The position numbers and the translations under genes are program-made. Under the pieces are notes generated by a model that was not told where the DNA came from, ran no database searches, and saw only the letters and a list, made by a program, of their open reading frames with translations. From Kribbella sindirgiensis (GTDB lineage Bacteria > Actinomycetota > Actinomycetes > Propionibacteriales > Kribbellaceae): a stretch of DNA of 64,000 bases. Of the stretch, positions 2,964 through 40,789 are shown in pieces. The stretch covers positions 372,001 to 436,000 of the forward strand of contig NZ_SJKA01000002.1 in assembly GCF_004331435.1 (NCBI RefSeq), read 5' to 3'. The stretch's first letter is position 1; each line of letters opens with the position of its first letter.

Positions 2964-3063
2964 TCGTCCGAAAGTATGAATTCGCCAACCGACGTGAGGC
3001 TCGGCACGTCAACCCGTTCGTGAGGCAGGAACCTGTCACCCGCCCTCGGACGTTGGGAGCGGT

Positions 3064-38768: not shown

Positions 38769-39700
38769 ATGCGTGCCGAACGGCTCCTCCGACTGTTGCT
38801 GCATCTGCAGACTCGTGGTCAGTCGACGGTTGCGCAGCTGTCCGCCGCACTCGACGTCTCGCCGCGGACGATTCAGCGTGACCTCGACGCGCTGAGCCTT
38901 GCCGGTGTTCCGGTGTACTCGATTCGCGGGCGCGGCGGCGGGTGGACGTTGCTGCCCGACTACCGCAGCCGGCTGACCGGGCTGACGCCGTCGGAGGTCA
39001 TGTCGGTCTTCGTCGGCGCGACCGCCCACGTCCTCGCCGACCTCGGCCTCGACGCCTCCAGCGAACTCGCCGTCACCAAGCTGATCGCATCACTCCCCGA
39101 AAGCACCCGCCGCGAGGCCGAATACGCCCGCCAACGCCTCCTGATCGACCACGCCGGCTGGGACGACCGCCGCGAATCCCCCCGCTGGCTCGACCTGTGC
39201 CGCCAAGCCCTCTGGGAAGAACGCCATCTAGAGATCACGTACGGCGAACCACCGCGCGGCTCGTTTGCGGTTGCGCCGCTCGGGCTCGTGGCGAAGGCGC
39301 GTACCTGGTATCTGGTCGCCGCGCGCACCGACGGCCGTCTCCGCACTACCGCCTGTCCCGCCTGACCTCGGCCGAGCTCACCACCGACATCTTCACCAGA
39401 CCGGCCGACTTCGACCTGGCCGCCTATTGGTCCCAGTCCCAGCGCGAGTTCCAGGCCACGCGCCCGTCCTACCCAATAGTCCTGAAGGTCCGCGACCACG
39501 CCATCCGCCGCTTCCGCCCAACCGCCCCGATACTCCCCACCGAAGACCCGGCCTGGTGGATCGTCCACGCCGACCTCGAAAACCCCGACGAAGCCCAAGC
39601 CGCCGTCCTCGCCCAAGCCGGCGCCGCCCAAGTCATAGCCCCACCCGAACTCGTCACCCTGGTCCGCAACGCCGCCCGCGAAATCGCCAACACCCACTAG
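38769..39700 (+). pseudogene. HTH plus WYL domain regulator, broken by a single-base frameshift
   Basis: Two frames together make one ordinary WYL regulator. The first (38769-39365) has the DeoR-like helix-turn-helix (VAQLSAALDVSPRTIQRDLD) and the WYL core up to TWYLVAARTDGRLR. At about 39344 the frame shifts and stops at 39363-39365, while the next frame continues HYRLSRLTSAEL and the C-terminal WCX part to 39700. Adding one base near CTCCGCACTACC restores a 310-residue protein. GATAGT six bases before the ATG suggests leaderless transcription. Either a recent inactivation or a sequencing error. Confidence 0.8.
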
Positions 39701-39703
39701 CCA

Positions 39704-40477
39704 TCAGGCGCTCGGCTTCGTGAGGATCTCGGGGCCGTCCGGGGTGATGGCGATGGTGTGTTCGGTGTGGGCGGTGCGGCAGCCGGTGACGCTGCGGAGG
39801 GTCCAGCCGTCGTCGTCGGTGACGAGCTCGGCGGTGTCCTGCATGACCCACGGCTCGAGGGCGAGCAGCAGGCCGGGCCGGAGCTGGTAGCCGCGGCCAG
39901 GGCGGCCCATGTTGGAGACGTGCGGGTCCTGGTGCATCGTCGAGCCGATCCCGTGGCCGCCGAACTCCATGTTGATCTGGTACCCCGCGGCGCCGAGCAC
40001 GGTCCCGATCGCTCGCGAGATGTCGCCGACCCGCGCGCCCGGCCGAGCGGCAGCGATCCCCGCGGCGAGCGCACGCTCGGTCGCGTCGATCATCGCGAGA
40101 TCCTCGGGAGCCTTGGTCTCACCCACGATGAAGCTGATCGCAGCGTCGGCGGCGATCCCGCCCAGCGAAACGGCGAGATCAAGCGTCAGCAGGTCACCAT
40201 CAGCGAGCTGGTAATCGGACGGCTTTCCGTGCAGTACGGCGTCGTTGACCGCTGTACAGATGTAGTGCCCGAACGGCCCGCGCCCGAACGACGCCTCGTA
40301 ATCGACGTAGCAGGACTGCCCTCCGGCCTCGGCGATGAGTGCCTTCGTCCACTGGTCGATGTCCAGCAGGTTCGTGCCGACCACGGTGCGGCTCTTCAGC
40401 GACTGCAGAATCCCGCCGACCAGCGCACCGCTCTCTTTCGCCTGCGCCAGCTCACGCGCATCCAGGATCTCGATCAT
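39704..40477 (-). CDS. map: Type I methionine aminopeptidase
   Basis: A 257-residue metalloprotease that removes the initiator methionine from new proteins. The five metal ligands are in place: D100 (LLTLDLAV), D111 (IAADAA), H175 (GGHGIGS), E208 (LALEPW) and E239 (AHTEHTI); H83 is the catalytic site His. It is divergent from an XRE-type regulator. TATAGT on the minus strand (40489-40484) stands exactly six bases before the ATG, so its message should be leaderless. It is probably one of several paralogues; the regulated setting suggests a conditional, not the housekeeping, enzyme. Confidence 0.93.
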   Translation of the reverse strand: MIEILDARELAQAKESGALVGGILQSLKSRTVVGTNLLDIDQWTKALIAEAGGQSCYVDYEASFGRGPFGHYICTAVNDAVLHGKPSDYQLADGDLLTLDLAVSLGGIAADAAISFIVGETKAPEDLAMIDATERALAAGIAAARPGARVGDISRAIGTVLGAAGYQINMEFGGHGIGSTMHQDPHVSNMGRPGRGYQLRPGLLLALEPWVMQDTAELVTDDDGWTLRSVTGCRTAHTEHTIAITPDGPEILTKPSA

Positions 40478-40522
40478 GCAATAACTATACCGGTCTTATT
40501 ATCCCGGTACTATTATCGGGTC
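40478..40522. promoter_or_regulatory. AT-rich divergent promoter with direct repeats (map / XRE regulator)
   Basis: The 45-bp gap carries -10 boxes for both directions: TATAGT (minus, 40489-40484) and TATTAT (plus, 40511-40516), each six bases from its start codon. Two direct repeats, TATTATCCCGG (40497-40507) and TATTATCGGG (40511-40520), 14 bp apart, overlap the plus -10 box and are candidate sites for the XRE protein. The AT content stands out against its surroundings. Confidence 0.75.
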
Positions 40523-40789
40523 ATGGTCAGACTGCCGCTCACCCCCGCAGAGGTCGAGCGCGGCGAACGCCTCGGCGCCCTCCTCCGCCGCGCCCGCGGC
40601 ACCCGCTCGATGCTCCAAACCGCCCTGGACGCCGGCGTCTCCCCCGAAACCCTCCGCAAAATCGAGTCCGGCCGCGTCGCCACTCCGGCCTTCCCGACCA
40701 TCGCAGCCATCGCCGACGTCCTCGGCCTGTCCCTCGACACCCTCTGGTCCGAGGTCAACCAGCCCGCAGCCAAGCGGCTGGTCTCCTGA
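40523..40789 (+). CDS. XRE-type helix-turn-helix regulator
   Basis: An 88-residue DNA-binding protein that is a single lambda-repressor-like domain: RARGTRSMLQTALDAGVSPE and LRKIESGRVATPAFPTIAAI. It has no extra sensing domain. It starts 45 bp from the divergent methionine aminopeptidase gene, and direct repeats in between suggest that it controls itself and map. Leaderless start at ATG 40523. The same pair is, to my knowledge, found together in other actinobacteria, but its purpose is not established. Confidence 0.85.
   Translation: MVRLPLTPAEVERGERLGALLRRARGTRSMLQTALDAGVSPETLRKIESGRVATPAFPTIAAIADVLGLSLDTLWSEVNQPAAKRLVS

Follow-up and report, generated by a model that had tools for sequence, protein, structure and literature searches.

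The window, that is the whole 64,000-nucleotide stretch of Kribbella sindirgiensis DNA that was analysed, carries a type I methionine aminopeptidase (MetAP) gene and a gene for a small XRE-family protein, which diverge from a common gap of 45 bp (Table 1). A sequence-only reading of the same DNA had described this divergent pair and its AT-rich gap, and both were borne out by the coordinates and by the base composition, the G+C content being 38% in a 45-base segment over the gap (40480-40524) and 62-87% in segments clear of it. The 14-bp direct repeat reported in that reading was also recovered (40486-40499 and 40500-40513, 79% identical), with copies of TATTATC at 40497-40503 and 40511-40517. 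The repeat turned out to consist of two overlapping palindromes, which had been missed earlier, and the predicted -10 boxes of both genes lie inside these predicted operator sites, in agreement with the former placing of the repeats over the -10 region.

Table 1. Features of the MetAP/XRE locus in the window and the other type I MetAP genes of the genome.
Feature	Position	Strand or placing	Evidence
Accessory type I methionine aminopeptidase (probable accessory role), 257 aa	39704-40477	-	TIGR00500, PF00557, intact ligands
XRE-family putative repressor, 88 aa	40523-40789	+	HTH_31, HTH_3
Common promoter and predicted operator region, 45 bp	40478-40522	no strand	Sequence, AT-rich
Predicted operator site 1	40481-40502	over predicted MetAP -10 box	Palindrome, matrix score 40.8
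Predicted operator site 2, weaker, overlapping site 1, 14 bp on	40495-40516	over predicted XRE -10 box	Score 28.0
Predicted XRE -10 box TATTAT	40511-40516	+	6 nt before ATG; position kept in 188/192 gaps
Predicted MetAP -10 box TATAGT	40484-40489	-	6 nt before ATG in this strain
Type I MetAP paralogue	C33:184 kb		231 bits; 49% identical to window enzyme
Type I MetAP paralogue	C33:313 kb		265 bits; 39% identical to window enzyme
Type I MetAP paralogue	C50:424 kb		288 bits; 29% identical to window enzyme

The MetAP gene adjoins a WYL-type regulator gene (38769-39700, + strand), which is seemingly split by a frameshift near 39340. The frame 38769-39365 gave HTH_11 and WYL matches, the overlapping frame 38942-39700 contains the C-terminal WCX domain, and the split gene looks like a pseudogene or a sequencing error.

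The window MetAP passed the TIGR00500 model with 206.1 bits (cut-off 171.35) and matched Peptidase_M24 (PF00557) with 119 bits. Its metal ligands D100, D111, H175, E208 and E239, together with H83 and H182, are intact, as previously stated, and each of these residues was present in 226/226 aligned MetAPs; we take their positions to be equivalent to those of the E. coli numbering. The enzyme is predicted to remove methionine from protein N-termini. Eight M24 matches were found in the 8.9-Mb genome and four type I MetAP genes lie over the TIGR00500 cut-off, while a fifth, weaker relative on contig C17 (77 bits) falls below it. The objection that the window might hold the only map gene of the organism thus fails, since three further type I MetAP genes are present. 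The usual place of the main map gene is after secY and adk. As the gene at C33:313 kb sits after two frames that can be read by eye as secY and adk, it probably encodes the main enzyme and the window gene would be an accessory copy. The C33:184-type enzyme occurs in 38 of 38 Kribbella genomes and the window type is also found in 25, according to a reading of the listed rows.

The XRE protein scored over the cut-off for HTH_31 (39.7 vs 27 bits) and for HTH_3 (36.3 bits). Its AlphaFold model (pLDDT 92.5) shows five helices, with residues 1-7 outside any helix, and the protein consists of a helix-turn-helix (HTH) domain with a short tail, preceded by an N-terminal arm Met-Val-Arg-x-Pro-Leu-Thr. 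A ligand domain was found neither by the domain-model search nor in the AlphaFold model. The closest solved relative is 2ofy, a putative XRE regulator of Rhodococcus that starts with MVRVPLT and is 61-66% identical to our protein over 74-81 aligned positions; it was deposited as a putative regulator, and the one paper found for this code concerns folding, as far as its accessible part goes. Among the folds ranking next to 2ofy are those of ClgR, DdrO, SinR and restriction-modification controller proteins. The latter (C proteins) are small HTH autoregulators with a fold like that of the XRE protein (Z 10.0-12.0 among the matches listed), but they share only 10-20% sequence identity with it, and the partner here is a MetAP rather than an endonuclease.

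Other origins of the pair were considered and discarded. A type II toxin-antitoxin system was rejected on the scores of couple_hipB (26.7 vs 71.65 bits) and dnstrm_HI1420 (18.5 vs 53.7), the partner being an intact MetAP, and a defence system was rejected because only weak HTH scores were obtained. At E <= 1e-6 the XRE protein matched none of 50,697 phage records, and at E <= 1e-10 it matched 9 out of a plasmid set of 72,556, these being 255 kb to 3.1 Mb long, so that neither a phage nor a plasmid origin was retained.

The first predicted operator site is a 22-bp palindrome, ATAnnnATACCGGTATnnnTAT, present in the gap with one mismatch as ATAACTATACCGGTCTTATTAT. At up to three mismatches it was unique in the genome, and the reversed-pattern control gave 0. 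Chance palindromes had a mean of 0.01 per window, with one in only 1 of 100 shuffles; a chance palindrome was rejected on the shuffles and the genome-wide uniqueness. When a weight matrix was derived from 192 paired gaps, site 1 obtained the highest score of all of them. In relatives with gaps of 32-33 bp (13 loci), one palindrome occupies most of the gap. A search for the full palindrome with up to two mismatches in 12 other genomes returned a match in G308 only, at its own MetAP/XRE pair, and most paired operators are therefore imperfect copies of the ATAnnnATACCGGTATnnnTAT consensus. The lowest score among paired gaps was -6.5, and a simple motif filter missed 10 of the 193 distinct paired MetAPs; some lineages carry what is predicted to be a diverged operator. 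A palindrome of the GGTAT..ATACC type, often in two copies, was observed mainly in family f7 (L154, L165, L166, L168, L169, L171-L173 and L175-L177), which suggests co-evolution with a changed repressor.

Both genes had been proposed to be leaderless. For the XRE gene this is strongly supported, as 188 of 192 distinct gaps have a TANNNT motif 6-7 nt upstream of the start (8.3 expected after shuffling), and the gene therefore looks leaderless across the family. For the MetAP gene the proposal fits this strain, but only 24 of the 192 gaps agree with it. In four close relatives (L010-L013), whose gaps measure 65 bp, the MetAP leader is longer and has a ribosome-binding-like site, the leader in the window being about 20 bp shorter, and the 45-bp gap is common to the window locus and the relative L015. 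Because few gaps are leaderless on this side and the leader is longer in L010-L013, the predicted leaderless MetAP start looks derived in this strain. A generic sigma-70 scan returned no promoter and no good -35 hexamer was seen, and for this reason the -10 boxes are given as predictions only.

The conservation of the gene pair was confirmed. A divergent MetAP gene was found at 193 of 224 non-redundant XRE loci, the other 31 including three doubtful family members. In an evenly drawn sample of the class, 119 of 296 Actinomycetes genomes had the XRE gene (E <= 1e-13). Of the 126 XRE loci read for this sample, which take in our own locus and the doubtful L180, 97 had a divergent MetAP, 28 showed none in the sequence covered (some 1.5 kb on either side of the XRE gene, in some cases cut by contig ends) and 1 was ambiguous. 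Among named genomes the divergent MetAP was present at 79 of 80 loci (the best 80 of 171 matches). The identity of XRE-linked MetAPs of other genomes to the window enzyme ranges between 41% and 92%. They fall in several groups of a tree of 42 MetAPs, which served to show the spread of the linkage only, as 16 of its 39 inner branches lack resolution and the two remaining paralogues sit on long branches. In Kribbella, nine loci lack the window-type enzyme and have the XRE gene divergent from the C33:184-type MetAP instead; four more such genomes stand outside this count, in one of which the locus is cut at a contig end. Since the XRE gene is paired with diverse MetAPs in several clades, the predicted enzyme activity, and not one particular gene, is the common factor of the pairing. 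One Micromonospora locus (L237) keeps the XRE gene and the operator upstream of position 3001, with no MetAP found in the stretch read, and its divergent neighbour (2250-2678, - strand) reads by eye as a Fur-type regulator.

The same matrix was then applied to MetAP genes unlinked to an XRE gene, which were picked from the match lists, and covered at most 130 bases before each of them. In XRE-bearing genomes, 19 of 21 unlinked MetAPs (18 genomes) scored above 0, against 0 of 27 in genomes without XRE at E <= 1e-13. The difference gave a Mann-Whitney p of 2.3e-9, a value that overstates independence because the compared genomes are related. The compared groups leave out four operator-lacking paralogues of XRE-bearing genomes, namely the adk-side (L006) and the 29%-identical (L002) MetAPs of the present genome and two MetAPs of others (L305, L306). 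The conserved palindrome, as a putative binding site, tracks the XRE gene across genomes. At many XRE loci without an adjacent MetAP, a distant MetAP in the same genome carries the operator.

Within our genome we counted 4 exact copies of the half site ACCGGTATnnnTAT (reversed-pattern control 0). One lies in the gap and another at C33:184171-184184 (L004, L351), 12 nt before the ATG of the second, unlinked type I MetAP, whose operator is half degenerate with a score of 12.3. Among Kribbella genomes with the window-type MetAP, 20 unlinked C33:184-type genes were scored, of which 13 were above and 7 below 0, the scoring having covered 30 of the 38 genomes; these values fit a putative control in trans, with decay of the site where a different enzyme is under a linked switch of its own. 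The two further half sites, one inside an open frame resembling by eye a ROK-type regulator (C32:2468) and one just after a leucyl-tRNA synthetase-like frame, also by eye (C51:463845), would imply a wider regulon, and this was set aside as probable chance. Half sites in genomes G075 and G241 had no MetAP or XRE match within 1.5 kb. In the loci L267-L278, all of one family (f23), the XRE gene is not beside a MetAP and two MetAP types have operator-like sites, including a short CCGGTATGATAATACCGG form beside the start codon.

The conserved pair and the tracking of the regulator by the operator lend good support to the former proposal that the accessory MetAP belongs to a regulated module with a shared predicted operator. 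With high confidence, we consider the locus a dedicated, self-regulating MetAP control module in which XRE acts as a putative repressor in cis and in trans; the protein very probably represses its own gene and accessory MetAP genes in both ways. XRE would be a small homodimeric repressor binding the 22-bp palindromes between the genes. As these overlap both predicted -10 boxes, the bound protein would silence the leaderless XRE gene and the accessory MetAP gene at once. It would also act in trans on unlinked accessory MetAPs that bear the operator, here probably the 49%-identical enzyme at C33:184197. The accessory MetAP would thus be held low and released once the repressor is titrated away, disappears or fails to mature properly. 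What the comparison shows is the conserved pair, the operator with its position over the -10 boxes, and the association of the operator with the XRE gene; the dimer, DNA binding, repression rather than activation and the inducing signal are inferred. A simpler scheme, in which autorepression just keeps the accessory MetAP at a fixed low amount and no special signal is involved, would suit a predicted operator lying over both predicted promoters and a regulator in which no sensor domain was found; we judge it rather unlikely, as a distinct repressor gene has been kept throughout the class, which points to something beyond a weak promoter. The former reading had named conditional processing of N-termini and protection from an inhibitor of the main MetAP as possible roles. 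With its full set of ligands, the accessory enzyme could replace the main MetAP, which would allow the module to protect the cell from a MetAP inhibitor or from metal starvation; no sign of an inhibitor or a metal signal emerged from the comparisons made here, and we regard this role as very unlikely.

As to the signal that would release the predicted repressor, attention was drawn to its N-terminus. All 221 unique family XREs with a placeable start begin with Met (217) or GTG-encoded Val (4) followed by Val2-Arg3, six rows having been dropped first, one of which was a family member without a placeable start; the more distant relative L180 begins with Met-Ala-Arg. Val2 is encoded by GTC, GTG, GTT or GTA and Arg3 uses all six codons, so that selection acts on the protein. 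In a 53-member alignment M1, V2 and R3 were invariant, as were T43, R45, K46, I47 and E48. The start Met/Val-Val-Arg is by its sequence a MetAP-type N-terminus, with Val a slow MetAP substrate. This N-terminus and the lack of a ligand domain suggest that MetAP may mature its own repressor.

Such maturation might itself be the signal. Removal of Met1 would expose a DNA-holding arm; on a fall in MetAP activity, the unprocessed repressor would let go of its operator, allowing the accessory MetAP to rise. The protein-level constraint on Val2-Arg3, an architecture limited to HTH and a short tail, and an arm that is without helix in the model and whose residues 1-4 are apparently absent from the model of chain B of 2ofy (80 residues, range 5-84) are in accordance with this scheme. 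We nevertheless consider it somewhat unlikely. The invariance of Val exceeds what cleavability needs, and Val2-Arg3 may just touch DNA with or without Met1; an arm serving for DNA contact only would give the same Val-Arg invariance. Moreover, XREs without an adjacent MetAP have the same start, the search queries began with Met-Val-Arg, and starts were extrapolated from alignments. A likeness of the arm to that of lambda repressor had served as a lead, and kinship with that protein was discarded: a family profile of 47 sequences did not retrieve lambda repressor up to E = 10, and the 43rd rank of 1lmb in Foldseek indicates a common fold only. Alternatively, the repressor may receive its signal from a ligand or a partner protein, or through its own regulated proteolysis, with the Met-Val-Arg arm acting as a DNA contact only. 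Several of the regulators with the nearest folds listed above are controlled by partners or proteases. XRE, however, is nearly all HTH, and we hold this route to be a reasonable possibility, if short of an even chance.

The proposed control module was compared with known systems. DdrO and capH gave weak matches to the XRE protein. In ImmR/ImmA, DdrO/IrrE and CapH/CapP, a small XRE repressor is genetically tied to a metallopeptidase, and peptidases of the ImmA, IrrE and CapP type are HExxH endopeptidases that cut the repressor. The window MetAP, in contrast, is an M24 aminopeptidase without HExxH and could remove Met1 only.

A closer parallel on the enzyme side is found in Bacillus subtilis, which has a main map gene and an accessory yflG under a regulator; expression of yflG is weak, and absence of the regulator YvoA raises the activity of the yflG promoter about two-fold, according to the accessible part of the report (PMC1266368). 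The same part describes YvoA as a GntR-family protein encoded with N-acetylglucosamine genes and not beside yflG, and it mentions neither a dedicated XRE regulator nor a palindrome that yflG would share with the regulator's own divergent promoter (PMC1266368). Unlike YvoA, our regulator belongs to the XRE family, and no GntR model was among its domain matches. Differential control of an accessory MetAP is thus known from B. subtilis, as far as that source goes, with a different regulator. Among the matches listed in searches of the open-access literature, no description of an XRE-MetAP module was found; the accessible part of a report on a Saccharopolyspora fragment lists both an XRE gene and a MetAP gene and draws no connection between them (PMC7435583). 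We would describe the module as an XRE autoregulator whose client is unusual and conserved.

MetAP generally counts as a housekeeping enzyme, and four type I copies are present here. A dedicated putative repressor and its predicted operator, kept across much of the class, suggest that some MetAP copies are meant for switching. Whether cells monitor the removal of N-terminal methionine could be tested simply by way of the invariant Val-Arg start. If the maturation scheme is true, the repressor would be a sensor by which the cell gauges its capacity for N-terminal processing and produces spare MetAP when this falls short. The module would then keep N-terminal methionine excision in homeostasis across actinobacteria, through a loop in which the enzyme matures its own repressor. 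The module is also of interest for MetAP as a drug target, because inhibition of MetAP could trigger the spare enzyme.
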